The translations under genes were made by a program, and so were the position numbers. A DNA stretch of 64,000 bases from a bacterium. GTDB taxonomy: Bacteria > SZUA-182 > DTGQ01. Shown here piece after piece: positions 23,050 through 37,416 of this stretch (its first letter is position 1; every line of letters starts with the position of its first letter). The stretch lies in assembly GCA_040755755.1 (NCBI GenBank), contig JBFLZW010000001.1:1-64000 (forward strand), in the 5' to 3' direction. A model generated the notes under the pieces. That model was not told the DNA's origin, searched no databases, and saw nothing but the letters and a program-made list of their open reading frames with translations.

Positions 23050-24189
23050 TCACTGCCTGAATCTCCTCCCCACTTGATTGGCCAGAAGATCAAACTCCCG
23101 CATGACCGTATCCATGCCGATGGATCTCATCATGTCAGCGGGTCCCTCCCGCATGCCCAGCACTTCCCTCATCCCTGCATTCAGCTCTTTCTCGGAAGAG
23201 ACGTTCCGCGATACACTGTGCAAAAAGCCATTGAACAGCGCATAAAGAAGCCTTTTCTGGATCATTGATTCAGAAGCGTCCTGTTCTGAGGCCTGGAACG
23301 AATGTTTTTGATACGGGTTCAGGTAAAATTCGCGGGAATCATCTTCCATTTTCTCTCCATGATAGACAAAGAGTCCTCTTCCGCAGTCTCTTCCCATCCG
23401 CTCCTGCAGGATGAGTTTATAGAGCAGATCGGGTATGGGCATGCCACTTTTACGCACCTTGACCGTTATCTCGGCGGTTTCAATGATCAGCTTGCTTCCA
23501 ATGATATCCGTCGATTCGCAGGGTCCGACCCGGAAGAAATTCAGGGCTGCCTTATCAATTTGCGAAGGAGCAGCCAGCCCCTGTTCGAGCATGTAGTATC
23601 CTTCGAAAAAATGGTAGGATAAAATATCATTGATGCCGGAAGCGGGAGCATCATTAATAATGATCGGCATCTTGCCAAGCTCACGAGCGAATGATGTAAG
23701 GAAATTTACTGTCTCGCCGGATACCCCGTCCCATTTAATGACCTCGATGAGATTTACCAGCGGAATAGGGTAAAAAAAATGGAACCCGCAAAAGCGCTCG
23801 CCATGATCAAGCTCTCTGGCCAGTTGGTTGATGGACAGAGAAGATGTGTTGGTAAGCAGCAGGGCCGATGGAGAAAGGATTGACTCCAGCCGTTTGAGCA
23901 TACTCACTTTCTCATGAAAATCTTCAGCGATGGATTCAACGACCAGATCGCATCCTCTCAGGCTCTCGAGACGATCGGTAAAGGTGAGTGTGGATAATTT
24001 TTCCTGAAACTGGTCCTGATCGATTATTTCATTCTTCAAAGCTCTCCTGAGCTTTCGCTCGATCTGGATTTTAGATTCCCGGACAATCTCGCTCTTTCGC
24101 ATCCAGACAATGATTTCATGGTCAAGCGAAGAGAAGAGATTGAAAATGCCCTTTCCCATTTTGCCGTAGCCTACAAGCCCTATTTTCAT
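23050..24189 (-). CDS. 3-hydroxyacyl-CoA dehydrogenase family oxidoreductase
   Basis: NAD-dependent dehydrogenase of the HAD/FadB family, 379 residues. It has the dinucleotide loop GYGKMGKG at 7-14, the active-site Ser in TNTSSLS (about 116), the catalytic His137 in CGFHFFYP with Glu149, and Asn187 in the C-terminal domain. It therefore looks catalytically competent to reduce a 3-ketoacyl or oxidise a 3-hydroxyacyl chain. The stop of the acyltransferase gene abuts its start. It is the last gene of the 13-gene minus-strand cluster, where it may supply the ketoreduction step, since no FabG-like protein is present. Confidence 0.88.
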   Translation of the reverse strand: MKIGLVGYGKMGKGIFNLFSSLDHEIIVWMRKSEIVRESKIQIERKLRRALKNEIIDQDQFQEKLSTLTFTDRLESLRGCDLVVESIAEDFHEKVSMLKRLESILSPSALLLTNTSSLSINQLARELDHGERFCGFHFFYPIPLVNLIEVIKWDGVSGETVNFLTSFARELGKMPIIINDAPASGINDILSYHFFEGYYMLEQGLAAPSQIDKAALNFFRVGPCESTDIIGSKLIIETAEITVKVRKSGMPIPDLLYKLILQERMGRDCGRGLFVYHGEKMEDDSREFYLNPYQKHSFQASEQDASESMIQKRLLYALFNGFLHSVSRNVSSEKELNAGMREVLGMREGPADMMRSIGMDTVMREFDLLANQVGRRFRQ

Positions 24190-25092
24190 TTACGGTTTTC
24201 CCTCGTGAAAAGTATAAACTTTGAAGTTTTGATTGATATACCTGGACATCTTGGCCAGGGACTCTCCCGGCCCTGCCTCATAACCTTCTCCAATGTCATA
24301 GTGATTGACCAGCTCATTTATCAGGCTTCCCCACCGTACCGGAGAATAGAGATTTCTGACTATCTCATGGGTAATGGCATTCCTGCCGATCAGGCTCATG
24401 TCAAGAGGAGACAGTATCCTGCAGTGCGGCTCGAAGATCTCGCAGCTATCGAGGAAGGTGGAGAGCTTGCCGATGTTTCCCTGTAAAAAGGAGGTATGAT
24501 ACCCGAATTTCGTGTTAATCTGGATGGTCTTTAAGGCACCGAGCTTTCCCGCCAGGTCCAGACCCTTTCCTATGGCCTGATGCTCACCAACGATAACAAA
24601 GCTTCGCTCACCGTTCAGACAGGCAATTTCAAGAAAATGGTCGATCTTGTTGAAAATAAGGTCGATTATCTCCTGCTGGGTAAGCCCGATAACCACTCCC
24701 ATCCCAAACTTCCGTTTCCTTGACGTATAAACCTGTTTTACCACCTTGAAAGCCTCTCTGAGGATCAGGAGCCCTGTTTCAAAGCTGTACGCTCCGGCAG
24801 CATAGAGAGCGCTGTAAATACCCAGGCTGTAGCCTGAGACCATTGCCGGGACGATATGCCGGTTTTGATAAAGGTCACAAATCGAGCAGCAGATTGTGTA
24901 GATAACCATCTGATTATGCAATTCACTGCCGGCTCCGGCACCAGCCTCGGCAAGGTTAAGCCGGTACCCCAGTTTATATACTTTAGCAAGGTTCTCTCTG
25001 AAGGTATCCTCCCGGCCTATTTTCTGCAGGGTTTCCCGGTAATCAATATCATTTCCCGGAAAGAGAAAAGCTGCCTTGGTATCTGGTTCCAT
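24190..25092 (-). CDS. FabD-like malonyl/acyl transferase
   Basis: A 300-residue acyltransferase starting at the ATG at 25092, with AAGGGG six to seven bases upstream; an in-frame GTG at 25119 has no such site and lies inside the inserted element. The nucleophile Ser89 is in GYSLGIYSALYAAG, a variant of the FabD motif GHSLGEYSAL in which His and Glu are replaced. The second catalytic residue is likely His199 in FGYHTSF. The C-terminal AGPGESLAKM motif is typical. The motif changes suggest an altered or specialised acyl substrate. It probably loads the cluster's own ACP. Confidence 0.87.
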   Translation of the reverse strand: MEPDTKAAFLFPGNDIDYRETLQKIGREDTFRENLAKVYKLGYRLNLAEAGAGAGSELHNQMVIYTICCSICDLYQNRHIVPAMVSGYSLGIYSALYAAGAYSFETGLLILREAFKVVKQVYTSRKRKFGMGVVIGLTQQEIIDLIFNKIDHFLEIACLNGERSFVIVGEHQAIGKGLDLAGKLGALKTIQINTKFGYHTSFLQGNIGKLSTFLDSCEIFEPHCRILSPLDMSLIGRNAITHEIVRNLYSPVRWGSLINELVNHYDIGEGYEAGPGESLAKMSRYINQNFKVYTFHEGKP

Positions 25093-25110
25093 ACTATTCC
25101 CCTTTAGAAT

Positions 25111-25384
25111 GAATGGCACTTACATAAGAATTAGTAATTCTCCCGCAGAGACGCTGAGACGCAGAGGATATCATTGAAAAGTAAAAGTAAAATAAGTTCC
25201 TCCTTGTGCCTTTTTACTTTTTGCTTGCTTCCAGGCCGTTGACACATCGATATATCCCGACTTTCATCAGGACCTTGCCGGATTGGTTGTTCTCTGCGTC
25301 TCTGCGTCTCTGCGGGAGATCTTTTTTCCCTGTGTGCTTTGTGTTCTCTCTATATTATAAGCTTGGCTTATGTAAGTGCCATTC
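25111..25384. mobile_element. 274-bp MITE-like insertion with 18-bp TIRs and 10-bp target duplication
   Basis: The ends are perfect 18-bp inverted repeats: GAATGGCACTTACATAAG at 25111-25128 and its exact complement at 25367-25384. They are flanked by a perfect direct repeat CCTTTAGAAT (25101-25110 and 25385-25394). No transposase is encoded. Removing the element and one target copy restores an operon junction: the outer-membrane gene stop TAA, then 11 bases containing AGGGG, then the ATG of the acyltransferase. An inner inverted repeat (25140-25169 and 25292-25320) is also found at 36201-36275. The 10-bp duplication would fit IS4-like transposases, which is inference. Confidence 0.88.
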
Positions 25385-25387
25385 CCT

Positions 25388-26758
25388 TTAGAATACATAC
25401 CGAATACTGATCCATGTCCGATCGTTTTTTTCAAACTGCCTGAAAACCGATTCATCATTTCCCCAAATGAAATCAAGTCCCAGCTTGAATTCCAGCACAT
25501 CATAGGGGCTGTATTGATATTCCAGTCGCAGGATATCATTCGATGTCTTTTCGAATGACCACAGATTGCCGATCTCAAAACTTGAAGAGCTGGTCAAAGT
25601 AGAGCTTAGCCGTGAGAAGAGCGAATTTTCAAAAATACGGACAAAGTCGAGAATGAGCAGATCTTCATTGACCGGTTTGTCAATCTCGGCACAATTCATA
25701 TACTCACTGCTCACTTTAACGTCTTTACAAAACCACCCATCGAAGGTATAGTTCAAGCCCAGCAGATATTGAACGAACCGGCCATAAACTTCCTTCCGAT
25801 CCATATCATGATACGTCGCTCCTCCGTGGAGCTCCACCCGGTCGGCCACAGTCGTTGACCATTCGATTGCCATGAGGTTCATCTTCCGGTATTTCTCCAC
25901 CAGACCGGCAGAGCCAGAGCCAAAGAATCCGGCAGGAGCAAGTCGCGGAGCAGGAGCGATCATCATGCCGGGAGCGACAAAGAGATCGGATGAGTTTATG
26001 TGCAGCGGTCGAGGATTGAGCAGCAGCGTTGGCAAATCTTCCGCTCTTCTCATATAGATCATATCTATGTCCAGATTTTTCAGATAAAGGGAGTATCTGG
26101 AGGCATAGCTCTCGATTTCGGGTATCTCTTCTTCAATCTGCATATCCCGGTCAAACGCTGCCCACCGGGAGCCGGAAAGATAAATCCTGCTCCGGGTAAA
26201 GGATGGTATATAGCAGGCTTCCAGTTGTGAATTCCTGGTGAAGGAGAGCTTGAATCCGCCTAAAAAAACACCCATTTTTTCATTATCAAGAAAGTCTGTG
26301 TAATCCTTCGGATTTATTCTGTCAGCAGGATTAAAATGGTCACTCTTCCCCCAGGCAAGTATTCTCCTGCCGCAATAAAAATCAAACCATCCCAGCCGAT
26401 ACTCGATGAATCCCTCATGAAGGTCGAACATCCTTCTATGTTGCCCGTTATCTTCAAGGCCATCGATGGCATCCTCTGATCTCTTATCAGTATCCGCTTG
26501 AAAACGGCTGGATAATCTGAAAGATAACCGTCTGAACAGGGTCTGGCTGTACGCCAGGTCAATTCTGGTCTCCGCACTGGTATTCTTCTCTTCCCTGCCG
26601 ACCCTGGGGTTAGCTGCAAAGTAGGCATAAGCCCTTCCCAGCGTATTGACATCGAACGATCCCAAAGCCCCCTCCAGGCACCGGGCATCTTGAGGGTGAC
26701 TGAGGAAGAGAAAAATCGCACTCCACACAATGATGATGGTTTTTGTTTTGCTGTTCAT
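25388..26758 (-). CDS. Predicted outer-membrane beta-barrel (DUF1302-like)
   Basis: 456 residues with a Sec signal at 1-28 (KTKTIIIVWSAIFLFLSHPQDARC). The remainder consists of alternating polar/hydrophobic strands (for example LSFRLSSRFQAD, WFDFYCGRRILAWGK) and a C-terminal Phe in WISIRYVF, the usual beta-barrel assembly signal. In this family such proteins often sit beside LolA-like proteins and RND or ABC exporters. Here it follows the LolA-like gene and belongs to the lipid cluster, so it may be the outer-membrane step of export. Its stop codon lies inside the target duplication of the MITE-like element. Confidence 0.78.
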   Translation of the reverse strand: MNSKTKTIIIVWSAIFLFLSHPQDARCLEGALGSFDVNTLGRAYAYFAANPRVGREEKNTSAETRIDLAYSQTLFRRLSFRLSSRFQADTDKRSEDAIDGLEDNGQHRRMFDLHEGFIEYRLGWFDFYCGRRILAWGKSDHFNPADRINPKDYTDFLDNEKMGVFLGGFKLSFTRNSQLEACYIPSFTRSRIYLSGSRWAAFDRDMQIEEEIPEIESYASRYSLYLKNLDIDMIYMRRAEDLPTLLLNPRPLHINSSDLFVAPGMMIAPAPRLAPAGFFGSGSAGLVEKYRKMNLMAIEWSTTVADRVELHGGATYHDMDRKEVYGRFVQYLLGLNYTFDGWFCKDVKVSSEYMNCAEIDKPVNEDLLILDFVRIFENSLFSRLSSTLTSSSSFEIGNLWSFEKTSNDILRLEYQYSPYDVLEFKLGLDFIWGNDESVFRQFEKNDRTWISIRYVF

Positions 26759-26767
26759 TCTTTGGTA

Positions 26768-26863
26768 AGGAGTCAGAATTCAGGAGTCAGGAGTCAGAAT
26801 AAATGTCTTTTGCTTTCATTCTGAATTCTGAATTCTGACTCCTGACTCCTGTCTCCTGTCTCC
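26768..26863. repeat. GGAGTCAG/CTGACTCC inverted repeat cluster
   Basis: Left arm of repeated GGAGTCAG units (26768-26800), an AT-rich spacer AATAAATGTCTTTTGCTTTC, and a right arm of repeated CTGACTCC units (26818-26863). It forms a strong potential cruciform or hairpin between the outer-membrane and LolA-like genes. A sibling copy lies at 46634-46722 and half copies at 16471-16503 and 63528-63561. Confidence 0.8.
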
Positions 26864-27724
26864 TTAATATTCTTTCGTCAACTCACGCTGGGTGAAAATC
26901 GAATCCTCCAGGGTATCACTGGTTACCCGCTTTTTGACCACGAGAATGGTACACTGATTTTCCCTGACCTTAACCATTTCCTCCCTGTTTGCCCGCCAGC
27001 AGTTACCCTTGACATTGGCTAAATCAGAGGCCACCCATTTTTTGAAGAACTTCCCATCCCGGTCGTAATGGTGAATCTCCACCGGAGTATAGACATCCTT
27101 CCTGATAAAGATGACCCGCTCTTTATAGCCGCTGCTTTTTGCCCTTCTCTCCAAAGGCATCGCTCTGACGACAAAACAGTCGTGGTTATCGATTTTCTTC
27201 TCACCCTGAAACTCGTACTTGAAATCGTCGATATTTTCGGCGCTCAAATCCTCAAAGGTATAATCGGTTCCCACAAACTCGCTGGTCTTGGCGGCGGCTG
27301 CTATCCGCTTGCTTTTGCGCAGGATAGGCAGGTACAGCCACTGGTCGTCTTCCTCGCCGGACTCACGCTCCAGGGAGAGCAGGCTGGTATTTCTCACCAT
27401 CTGAGGGCTGGTAAAGCGCATCAGATTCCTGCGCTTTCCGCTTCTGCCATATTCATTCCAGACCTCGAGGGTTCTCTCCCTTTCCTTGCCTGCCGGGTCA
27501 CGGATAATCATATTCATCTGGATATGCTCAGCCACTGACTTGGCCCTTCTTTCCACTTCCTCCATAATCGAGCGTCCCTTTTTGAAAGCATCCTGCTGGT
27601 CAGCATTTCCCTTCGGCTGTCCCCATACTATCGGAGCGGGGTCTACTGTCAGGCAGAGGAGCAGGGAAATGACAATCAAAACAATCGAAAAAGAACTGAC
27701 CATGCCTGCCGCTGTCTTATTCAT
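26864..27724 (-). CDS. LolA-like outer-membrane lipoprotein-sorting family protein
   Basis: 286 residues with an N-terminal signal or anchor (about 10-36). The fold matches the LolA_like family (PF17131 type): AEHIQMNMIIRD, RNLMRFTSPQMVRNTSLL, DDQWLYLPILRKSKRI, GTDYTFEDLSAENIDDF and the final TQRELTKEY. Members bind lipid or lipoprotein acyl chains in the periplasm and are usually encoded with a transporter and an outer-membrane protein. The start overlaps the nitroreductase gene by 8 bp. In this cluster it is a good candidate for carrying the lipid product across the periplasm. Confidence 0.88.
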   Translation of the reverse strand: MNKTAAGMVSSFSIVLIVISLLLCLTVDPAPIVWGQPKGNADQQDAFKKGRSIMEEVERRAKSVAEHIQMNMIIRDPAGKERERTLEVWNEYGRSGKRRNLMRFTSPQMVRNTSLLSLERESGEEDDQWLYLPILRKSKRIAAAAKTSEFVGTDYTFEDLSAENIDDFKYEFQGEKKIDNHDCFVVRAMPLERRAKSSGYKERVIFIRKDVYTPVEIHHYDRDGKFFKKWVASDLANVKGNCWRANREEMVKVRENQCTILVVKKRVTSDTLEDSIFTQRELTKEY

Positions 27725-28364
27725 TGGCCATGATCCTCTCTTTTGCCGAATAAAAGCTGCAAATATCCGACAGGTTTTTTCTCTTCTTTTTCAGTGCGGT
27801 ATTGTTACCATCGAGCGGATAGCCGATGGGCAGGTAGGCTATAAGTTCTCCCCTCAGGCCAAACTTTTCCGCGCACTTTTCGGAACCACTCAGACTGGCC
27901 ATGAGCCAGACCATCCCCAGGCCCAGAGAGTGAGCCATAAGCCACATATTCTGCACAGCGCAGCCGATGGATACCAGTTCCGCCCGTTCATAGTTGCGGC
28001 TGAAATTCTCTCCTATCAATCCCTCGATTTTTTTTAGCCGGCTTGAAAAATGCTTCATATTCCAGGCAGTAATGATATGAGGGGCCTGGGCGGTGATCTG
28101 GGCGGATTGGAAAATAATGTCCCTGTACCCTGGCACGATCAGGCTTTGTGCTTCCTCGGAGAGAAGCTCGGATATCAGTTTTGTGTCCTGTCCGGTAAAT
28201 ATGGAGAAGTACCACGGCTGGCTGTTGGTCGGCGAGGGAGACATCCGGCCGGCATCGATCACCTGGTACAGAAGCTCTTCAGGAACCGGTTTATCCGAAA
28301 ATTTCCTGATGCTGCTGCGGCTGTAGATAATCTCTTTCAGGCTTATTGCATCTTCGGTTTTCAT
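27717..28364 (-). CDS. Nitroreductase-family FMN oxidoreductase
   Basis: A 215-residue flavoprotein of the nitroreductase fold. The FMN-binding RSSIRKFSDKPV is near residue 20, followed by AGRMSPSPTNSQPW and a C-terminal AYLPIGYPLDGN. The start ATG overlaps the KS stop codon in ATGA, so a start at 28364 is favoured over the upstream in-frame codon. Nitroreductase-like enzymes in biosynthetic clusters can act as enoyl or dehydrogenase partners. Here it may reduce or oxidise the acyl chain, which is inference. Confidence 0.88.
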   Translation of the reverse strand: MKTEDAISLKEIIYSRSSIRKFSDKPVPEELLYQVIDAGRMSPSPTNSQPWYFSIFTGQDTKLISELLSEEAQSLIVPGYRDIIFQSAQITAQAPHIITAWNMKHFSSRLKKIEGLIGENFSRNYERAELVSIGCAVQNMWLMAHSLGLGMVWLMASLSGSEKCAEKFGLRGELIAYLPIGYPLDGNNTALKKKRKNLSDICSFYSAKERIMANE

Positions 28365-29605
28365 GGGTATCGCTCCAGCACCAGTGAACAATTATGTCCG
28401 CCGAATCCAAATGAATTGCTCATGGCCGCCTCCAGATTTTTAACCTCTCTGGCTTCGTTCGGTACATAATCCAGATCGCATTCAGGATCCGGCTCCTCAT
28501 GGTTGATCGTTGGCGGGATAATTCCCTGAGAGAGAGAAAGGGCAGTAGCCGCGCATTCAAGAACTCCGGCAGCTCCGATGGTATGACCGATCATGGATTT
28601 TTGGGAACTGACAGCCAGCCGGAAGGCATCTTCCCCAAAAACCATTTTTATGGCTATGGTTTCACACAGGTCATTATGGTGGGTGGACGTGCCATGAGCA
28701 TTGATATAGCCGATCCTGGCCTTGTGAACTTTCGAATCCTGCAGGGCCAGAGACATGGTTTTGGCCATTTCCCTGCCGCTTGGCTCAGGAGACATGATGT
28801 TGAAGGCCTCCGAGGTCACTCCATGGCCGGAGATCACGGCGTAAATCCTGGCTCCTCTCCGGCAGGCCTTTTCCAGCCCCTCCAGGATGAGGGAACATCC
28901 GCCGTTGGCCAGAACGAATCCTCCCCTTTTCCGGTCAAACGGACGGCTTGCCTTTTCGGGGAATTCATTTTCCTCGGACAGGGCGTGCAACTGGTTGAAG
29001 CCATTGATACTTTTTGGGGTCAGCATGGTATCGACACCGACAGCTACCGCCATATCTCCCTTGCCTGAGCGCAGATAATCACAGGCGGCCGCTATGGCGT
29101 GACCGCCGGAAGCACAGGCAGTCGAGACATTGTATGAAGGTCCCTTGAAGCCGTATTTGATCGATATCCAGGCGGAGATGGCATTAACCATCGTCTGTAA
29201 GACCATGAATCTGTTATCTGCGTCCGCATCCTGCGGCTCTTTTCCATCCTCAAAGCTTGCTCCACCCGATCCGGTAATGACTGCACAGCGGTAAGGATCG
29301 AGTTTTTCCATTTCCAGCCCGCTATCCGCTATGGCTTCCTTCGCGCTGAGTAATCCTATCCGCGTAGCCGCGGTCGTTTGCTTGCGAAGCCTCTTGGGAA
29401 ATTCCTTCTCTTCCAGCTCATAGTATTCCAGGGGAAGCTCGCCGCCTATTTTGGTTATGCAGCCGGAGGTATCAAACGAGGTAATCCGCTTGATACCCGG
29501 CTTGCCTGCAACCAAGTTTTTCCAGCATTGTGATGTAGTTATCCCCACCGGGCAGATCATTCCAATGCCGGTAATAGCTACTGCCTTGTCGCTTATCCCG
29601 CTCAT
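28361..29605 (-). CDS. FabF-like beta-ketoacyl-ACP synthase
   Basis: A 414-residue thiolase-fold condensing enzyme with a complete Cys-His-His triad: Cys164 in STACASGGHA, His304 in NAHGTSTHHND and His341 in SMIGHTIGAAG. It should catalyse decarboxylative chain elongation on the cluster ACP, whose gene overlaps it by four bases (ATGA). It resembles primary FabF in length but is located in a dedicated cluster. A single KS implies either iterative use or one elongation. Confidence 0.93.
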   Translation of the reverse strand: MSGISDKAVAITGIGMICPVGITTSQCWKNLVAGKPGIKRITSFDTSGCITKIGGELPLEYYELEEKEFPKRLRKQTTAATRIGLLSAKEAIADSGLEMEKLDPYRCAVITGSGGASFEDGKEPQDADADNRFMVLQTMVNAISAWISIKYGFKGPSYNVSTACASGGHAIAAACDYLRSGKGDMAVAVGVDTMLTPKSINGFNQLHALSEENEFPEKASRPFDRKRGGFVLANGGCSLILEGLEKACRRGARIYAVISGHGVTSEAFNIMSPEPSGREMAKTMSLALQDSKVHKARIGYINAHGTSTHHNDLCETIAIKMVFGEDAFRLAVSSQKSMIGHTIGAAGVLECAATALSLSQGIIPPTINHEEPDPECDLDYVPNEAREVKNLEAAMSNSFGFGGHNCSLVLERYP

Positions 29606-29958
29606 GCCAATTCGACTCCTCCGGCCAGTTCTTCCCCTTCAGTCTCCTCTTCTTTCCTGGCGATCAGATCTTCTCCCCGCTCGATAATGTCATAAACGGC
29701 ATTAGCTACCTCTCTTACGGTATATACCGGATGGGCGAGTATGTATTGACCGATGACTCTGACTTCGAGGCTGAATTTGTATTTCTTCTTGAACTCCTCG
29801 ATCATCTCCAGATAAATGAGCGAGTCCCCTCCCAGATCATCAATGATTCTCGTTTCCGGGTTGATCTTGTCCAAAGCCACTCCCAGCTCCTCAGACAGAA
29901 TTTCTCTCACCTCTTCATAAATAGTCTTTTTCTCCTCATCGCTCAGTATTTTCTGCAT
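29602..29958 (-). CDS. Acyl carrier protein
   Basis: A 118-residue carrier protein, longer than the usual 75-80 because of a charged C-terminal tail (about 95-118, ERGEDLIARKEEETEGEE). The phosphopantetheine attachment site is Ser46 in DDLGGDSLIYLEMIEEF. It overlaps the KS gene in ATGA and follows the radical SAM gene after 57 bp. It is the dedicated chain carrier of this cluster. No phosphopantetheinyl transferase is encoded in the window, so a housekeeping one is likely used. Confidence 0.93.
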   Translation of the reverse strand: MQKILSDEEKKTIYEEVREILSEELGVALDKINPETRIIDDLGGDSLIYLEMIEEFKKKYKFSLEVRVIGQYILAHPVYTVREVANAVYDIIERGEDLIARKEEETEGEELAGGVELA

Positions 29959-36121: not shown

Positions 36122-36200
36122 GCACTCCTCTTTCAGTACGGGTGAACCGGCTTTAATCCGGTCGCTCTTATGGGAAAGACGACACGGCAGTGTTGTATTT

Positions 36201-36275
36201 CTCCCGCAGAGACGCTGAGACGCAGAGGATATTATTTTCAGTCATTCTCTGCGCCTCTGCGCCTCTGCGGGAGAT
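36201..36275. repeat. Dispersed CGCAGAG-type inverted repeat
   Basis: Left arm 36201-36230 and right arm 36246-36275 form a long imperfect hairpin built from CGCAGAG/CTCTGCG units. The 30-bp left arm is identical to 25140-25169 inside the MITE-like element, but the outer terminal repeats and target duplication of that element are missing here. A looser relative (ACACAGAGGCACAGAG) lies at 62744-62761. Confidence 0.8.
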
Positions 36276-36288
36276 CATTCTTCTATCC

Positions 36289-37416
36289 TTAATCAGTGTA
36301 CTCCAGGATGAATCCTGCCTGCATCCATTTGCTCGATTCAGTCACCAGGCTCATCAGAAGATCACCCCGCTCCAGTTTCTGCTCCTGGCTATGCTCCTGG
36401 AAAAACTCATCAAGGGCGATTAAAATAGCAGGCGCTCCCTGATACCCCCTGTCCCCCAGCTTGGTATAGAAATTCACCTGCGGTACCTTATAGGTTTTTT
36501 TCAGACCGGCGATGATGAGATCCATAAAGTGCCTGGTTGGGATATTGGCCAGGAAGTATTTCACCCTGTTCATATCCAGGCCGGTTCTGGCCAGCATATT
36601 ATCCATCCCCTTCTTGCACAGGGATGGGGCTACCTTGGCCACATTGGTGATGTTCTGGGTCAAATGGTGCCAGCCATGTTCATAGGCCTCCAGCGGCTGA
36701 GCCCGGTGGCCGCCAAAAAGGGCGTACATGTCAGGGCCTAAACCGGCCCCCACCGATTCCAGATAGGTATCCACAACCCTGAGATTAATCCCCCCCGGAT
36801 TCTTTTTGTTGCTCAACACCACTGCACCGGCCCCATCGCAGAGAAACCAGCGCAGGATAACCTGATCCCTCTCAAGGATTTTCTGGTTGTAGTGCCTGGC
36901 GGACAAAAATGGAGAAGATAACTGAGAGCTCATGAGCAAGGCACTCTGATAGCGGCCATTGGCGATTAAATCCGTCCCGACCTGCAGGGCCTTATAGATT
37001 GAGGTGCAATTGGAATGAATGGACATCTCGGCACAATAGGGGATATTGAGCTTGTCCTGAATCAGGGTGCTGGTAGGCGGAGCAACCTGCTCCATCATGG
37101 CACCGCCGTAAATGAGAAGGTTAATGTCCGAGGCTTTCATCCCGGCCATGTCCAGAGCTTTTCTGGCAGACTTGACACACATGGAAACATTATCTTCAGT
37201 CGGCTTTTTCGTTACCGGATCAATGGCATAGTGGAAGTACTCCATACCCAGCATTTCCTTCATGGTAGGCTGTACCTTTTTGATCCACTTCATGAGTTTC
37301 GGGGGGGCATCGGTGATTTCACCCAGAACACCATCAATACGGTCAAACGGGATCTTGTCCCCTGGCGAAAACGAGCCTATGCCGGTAATGTAAACATCGG
37401 TTCCTCTCTGATTCAT
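36289..37416 (-). CDS. KASIII-like condensing or acyltransfer enzyme
   Basis: 375 residues from the ATG at 37416, preceded by GGAGG at eleven bases. Thiolase fold: Cys137 in HSNCTSIYKAL and His296 in IPTRHFMD. The Asn that completes the canonical FabH triad (GNTSAA) is replaced by Asp322 in KLGDRGYQG. A Cys-His-Asp arrangement is known in KASIII-like acyltransferases such as CerJ, which form esters rather than carbon-carbon bonds. It is the first gene of the cluster as transcribed. It may start chain synthesis or transfer the finished acyl chain; the sequence alone does not decide. Confidence 0.85.
   Translation of the reverse strand: MNQRGTDVYITGIGSFSPGDKIPFDRIDGVLGEITDAPPKLMKWIKKVQPTMKEMLGMEYFHYAIDPVTKKPTEDNVSMCVKSARKALDMAGMKASDINLLIYGGAMMEQVAPPTSTLIQDKLNIPYCAEMSIHSNCTSIYKALQVGTDLIANGRYQSALLMSSQLSSPFLSARHYNQKILERDQVILRWFLCDGAGAVVLSNKKNPGGINLRVVDTYLESVGAGLGPDMYALFGGHRAQPLEAYEHGWHHLTQNITNVAKVAPSLCKKGMDNMLARTGLDMNRVKYFLANIPTRHFMDLIIAGLKKTYKVPQVNFYTKLGDRGYQGAPAILIALDEFFQEHSQEQKLERGDLLMSLVTESSKWMQAGFILEYTD

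Follow-up and report, generated by a model that had tools for sequence, protein, structure and literature searches.

The window analysed here is a stretch of 64,000 nucleotides (positions 1 to 64,000 of contig JBFLZW010000001.1) from a bacterial draft assembly. A minus-strand gene series at positions 23050-29958 includes an ACP, a ketoacyl synthase, a nitroreductase, a LolA-like protein, an outer-membrane-type (OM) protein, an acyltransferase and a 3-hydroxyacyl-CoA dehydrogenase, and has the appearance of a cluster of fatty-acid or polyketide type with outer-membrane export. Between the OM gene and the acyltransferase-like gene lies a 274-bp element, here called MITE-A, with the features listed in Table 1. 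The first-pass annotation had proposed perfect 18-bp terminal inverted repeats and a perfect 10-bp target duplication around a body without a transposase, and this was confirmed to the base; the inner inverted repeat (28 bp, 96%), which is built of octamer units, had been overlooked. The end 18-mer, allowing up to three mismatches, occurs twice in the whole window, against 0.03 occurrences expected. The 274-bp strand folds more strongly than its shuffles (z = -9.9), and the longest listed plus-strand ORF within the element (61 aa) had no match in a Pfam search.

Table 1. Coordinates of the MITE-A insertion and of its neighbouring genes in the window.
Feature	Position	Strand	Remarks
3-Hydroxyacyl-CoA dehydrogenase gene	23050-24189	-	next after the acyltransferase-like gene
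Acyltransferase-like gene	24190-25092	-	weak PF00698; downstream; intact; ATG 25092-25090 after AGGGG
Left target duplication, CCTTTAGAAT	25101-25110	.	centre TTAG = YTAR
Entire non-autonomous element, MITE-A	25111-25384	.	274 bp
Left terminal inverted repeat, GAATGGCACTTACATAAG	25111-25128	+
Inner inverted repeat, left arm, (RCGCAGAG)n	25139-25166	+	palindrome common to MITE-B
Spacer between inner arms, 125 bp	25167-25291	.	missing from a 120-bp deletion derivative on contig 24
Inner inverted repeat, right arm, (CTCTGCGY)n	25292-25319	+	copies vary in unit number
Right terminal inverted repeat, CTTATGTAAGTGCCATTC	25367-25384	-	perfect reverse complement of the left repeat
Right target duplication, CCTTTAGAAT	25385-25394	.	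holds the OM-gene stop TAA, 25390-25388
Outer-membrane-type protein gene, 456 aa	25388-26758	-	upstream neighbour in gene order, undamaged; without Pfam match

The flanks were joined after removal of the element and one duplication. On the minus strand, the junction (...GTATTCTAAAGGGGAATAGTATGG...) contains the OM-gene stop TAA, AGGGG and the ATG of the acyltransferase-like gene, and reads GTATTC TAA AGGGGAATAGT ATG. The first-pass annotation had placed these signals within about 15 bases of each other at the restored site; there are 11 bases from stop to ATG, with the ribosome-binding site between, and the gap with the insertion is 295 bases. Its claim that both genes were left intact also holds: the stop codon lies in the right duplication, most of the Shine-Dalgarno sequence lies in the left one, and therefore both neighbouring genes are undamaged. 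No natural empty site and no syntenic relative were found. A close ortholog is lacking from the same-genus genome, and in the same-family genome G003 the two genes, OM and acyltransferase, are on separate contigs with other neighbours. Because the gene order is not kept in these relatives, the empty site could be demonstrated only by joining the flanks.

The element was then used to search its own assembly (5.26 Mb, 88 contigs, 97.6% complete). The search gave 40 long matches, and 27 of the 30 loci fetched contain full-length copies, so that the genome carries at least 27 of these together with many fragments. Copies are 263-275 bp long, and the variation comes mainly from the loss of a single octamer unit. 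Perfect 10-bp duplications flank 22 of the 27 copies; in all 22 the bases at positions 5-6 are TA, and in 19 of them positions 4-7 read YTAR. The other five full-length copies have no perfect duplication. At L011, L013, L014 and L022 the element is full-length and the 10-bp flanks are mismatched, nearly all of them with TA at positions 5-6, which is probably the result of recombination between copies. The terminal repeats, the duplication of constant length and the short, multicopy body without a transposase gene are the properties by which a MITE is recognized. ORFs of at least 150 codons are interrupted by 4 of 25 testable copies, compared with 49% of YTAR sites (P ~7e-4); selection or target preference keeps the copies intergenic. 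The window copy is one substitution away from four copies at other sites and 13 from the most distant copy, which fits the recent insertion proposed earlier. Within the youngest copy group, the members are 0-2 substitutions apart and have mostly kept perfect duplications.

End-like sites number 134 across the genome, compared with six for a reversed control pattern, and the ends are also found on other element types. L095 (2262-2405), L096 (1542-1686), L049, L050 and L086 are elements of older appearance, with related ends, GAATGGCACTTACAGAAG/C, and with cores unrelated to MITE-A; L095 retains a 9/10 duplication. At L054 (1224-1525, contig 87), a full MITE is directly followed by its 10-bp duplication and then by another end repeat; it appears to have landed at a target duplication belonging to an older, truncated element.

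The element was not found in the other genomes searched, including those of the same genus and family; almost all the matches there involved the octamer repeat, and none spanned the ends. The exact end was also absent from the same-genus genome G001 and the same-family genomes G002 and G003. This distribution suggests that the MITE-A family is young or newly arrived in the lineage, and it is an abundant and apparently lineage-specific repeat in a bacterial class that has been poorly sampled. Of 386 genomes, a handful matched the pattern GAATGGCACTTACNNAAG, one of them being G065, and a search of viral contigs for the ends gave only two. Across GTDB genome contigs, the exact 18-mer was found in 74 stretches, mostly from Gamma- and Betaproteobacteria.

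Full-length IS with such ends occur in other bacteria. In G065, two inverted end copies 1509 bp apart frame a 487-aa transposase, with GGGTCAGATCC on both sides as an 11-bp duplication. A complete 1532-bp IS from a Betaproteobacteria MAG (L209) has one identical end and the duplication ACGTTAAGCC. The plasmid matches were found with the G065 transposase as query; among them, an Acidovorax plasmid (L217) carries a complete 1532-bp IS annotated as IS4 family, with the duplication GTATTAAGGC. The targets of L209 and L217 are of the YTAR type, like those of MITE-A. The L114 and L217 transposases match the NCBIfam model NF033592 (IS4) with E ~1e-65. Transposases of the IS4 family are defined by D(60~110)D(100~150)E and Y(2)R(3)E(6)K (PMC2266710); the D-D-E spacing is 78/107 in L114 and 78/105 in L217, and both contain YREK. 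The subgroup IS4 has the end consensus -AATR--------WTW---- and a duplication of 10-13 bp (PMC2266710 Table 1). The end GAATGGCACTTACATAAG fits this consensus at every fixed position, and the duplications here have 10 bp, those of the full-length IS with such ends 10 or 11. The ends of ISPen1 (IS4) were printed as TGGCACTTACTTAAG (PMC7378034). ISPen1 and its relatives share with MITE-A the terminal core TGGCACTTAC(T/A)TAAG, and L209 and L217 also share the 10-bp duplications with YTAR centres; these IS, about 1.5 kb long, encode a transposase of about 460-490 aa, whereas the window element lacks one and is 274 bp long. The likeness to ISPen1-type IS is confined to the terminal repeats. The searches proposed by the first-pass annotation support its reading: the genome holds at least 27 full-length copies, and identical or nearly identical ends were found on full-length IS in other bacteria; the same 274 bp at this site in distant genomes, or the lack of both another copy and an IS with these ends, would have spoken against it, and neither was encountered.

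Taken as a whole, the locus is very probably best explained as a genuine and probably recent insertion of a MITE of the IS4 subgroup (ISPen1-like). The points that weigh against it are the failure to find an IS4-subgroup transposase in the assembly, a likeness to IS confined to the terminal repeats, the lack of a natural empty site and the five of 27 copies with no perfect duplication. We infer a transposition event in which an IS4-type transposase would have bound the 18-bp ends and excised the element. The element might then have been joined to a target nicked 10 bp apart on the two strands around a YTAR centre (CCT-TTAG-AAT), and repair of the gaps would have produced the CCTTTAGAAT duplication. 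The landing place would have been the 11-bp gap between the OM gene and the acyltransferase gene.

A MITE usually, though not strictly, shares its ends with an autonomous element of its own genome, since such a partner may be lost or unassembled. Autonomous elements with ends of this type are present in other bacteria, as described above, and the search of this incomplete assembly found none. When two IS4-subgroup transposases of other hosts were used as queries against it, neither was matched. Its PF01609 matches are five partial ones only, with at best insignificant similarity to IS4-subgroup enzymes. Transposase fragments beside end repeats on contigs 33 and 41 were considered as the partner and rejected; they look like remnants with variant elements in or beside them. 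Some contigs stop about 110-127 bases into an end repeat; these were likewise rejected as broken full-length IS, because those that were read carry MITE sequence and therefore reflect unresolved MITE copies. The lack of a matching transposase indicates that the element is orphaned or that its partner was left unassembled. There is precedent for orphan MITEs: MITEs that match their IS at the borders alone have been described, and lost partners have been discussed (PMC3852290).

These observations could also mean that the family spread earlier, that the autonomous IS is gone and that the copies are now immobile, a possibility that deserves to be taken seriously but that we do not favour. The missing transposase speaks for such a relic, as do some copies that are degraded or have mismatched duplications; however, the near-identity and the mostly perfect duplications of the youngest group argue against it. 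Moreover, many of the 88 contigs end inside MITE copies, so that at this level of completeness the partner IS could be missing from the assembly; as the assembly breaks at repeats, the absence of the transposase is weak evidence of loss. The relic reading is compatible with the IS4-subgroup MITE insertion, and the two differ only in present activity.

It is unlikely that the MITE now also serves as a regulatory RNA, transcribed as part of the operon, with a long hairpin that is cut in the style of RNase III or slows transcription and thus uncouples the downstream fatty-acid-type genes from the OM gene. The strong fold and the position within a same-strand gene series are consistent with such a role, and bacterial MITE hairpins (NEMIS) were proposed to affect neighbouring mRNAs (PMC2229807). 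However, promoter signals are not above expectation (1 against 0.7 expected), the two terminator-like sites (0.3 expected) lie on the plus strand and not on that of the genes, and no Rfam family reached its gathering score. The copies also lie at many different sites, and a probably recent insertion would have left little time for selection. A snoRNA match in the Rfam search (E = 0.19) was below its gathering score and was taken as chance. A chimera or recombination artefact joining repeat copies is highly improbable, since, although the draft assembly is broken at repeats, the perfect duplication has its own sequence here, both flanking genes are complete and joining the flanks gives a compact junction.

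The insertion of an IS4-subgroup MITE therefore remains the preferred reading, and elements of this kind are already known. MITEs without a transposase and with the same end family were found in the Polaromonas MAG D1-2020 (L160 and L171, 199 bp) and in Thiohalobacter thiocyanaticus (L198 and L204, 133-134 bp). They also have perfect 10- or 11-bp duplications and palindromic cores; however, their cores are unrelated in sequence to that of MITE-A, and the duplications of the Thiohalobacter copies are 11 bp long, for instance GGGTCAGTACC, and not of the YTAR type. An IS4-derived MITE of Haloquadratum walsbyi, ISHwa2, has 237 bp, 34 copies and 17-bp ends (PMC3852290 Table 4). Compared by description, it is an IS4-family MITE similar to MITE-A in size and copy number; whereas it is archaeal, has a 5-bp duplication and probably belongs to another IS4-type group. 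The MITE in hupL of Thiomargarita has 10-bp direct repeats, a 19-bp inverted repeat and a high copy number, and no parental IS was identified in ISfinder (PMC4853749). It is likened to MITE-A by description and not by sequence, and differs in that it interrupts a gene. The MITE-A family and its core seem to be undescribed in the papers searched, where none of the five sequences tested turned up except in the ISPen1 table.

The palindromic core of MITE-A is not restricted to this family. Several standalone octamer palindromes in the genome are the cores of a second family, MITE-B, with the ends TCGCTCTTATGGGA / TCCCATATGAGCGA, a length of 172-183 bp and exact 6-bp duplications in all six copies with both ends (L223, L224, L226, L227, L230 and L231). 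In some copies the MITE-B core starts with CTCCCGCAGAGACGCTGAGACGCAGAGGATATCATT, and the corresponding part of MITE-A, which has an added spacer, reads exactly the same. One palindrome thus lies inside two unrelated sets of ends. The window itself contains a partial MITE-B at about 36162-36292, with the left end TCGCTCTTATGGGA at 36162-36175, an octamer hairpin at about 36203-36275 and the right end lost. The octamer palindrome (CTCTGCGY)n is abundant: for CTCTGCGNCTCTGCG, the own genome gave 154 matches, the same-class genome G005 about 20 and the same-genus genome G001 none. The palindrome was also noted in G003, G007 and G008.

In other bacteria, IS4-ended MITEs often have different palindromic cores, such as CCGTCATTCCCGCGAAGGCG (L205) and TTTGGTGGGGCAGGGCCCCACCCT (L180), in a small and non-random sample; the cores of L095 and L096 in the own genome and of L206 are not clearly palindromic. 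Tentatively, and with some doubt, given a small, non-random and IS4-ended sample, IS4-ended MITEs might recurrently form around dispersed palindromic intergenic repeats and so spread them. If true, this could give widespread extragenic palindromes of unknown mobility one means of moving, and the shared core, if general, would link MITEs to the origin of dispersed palindromic repeats. For this organism, MITE-A ties an abundant repeat to a named IS family and explains part of the fragmentation of the assembly, and the insertion in the window is a clean case in which the neighbouring genes kept their stop codon and ribosome-binding site through the target duplication.
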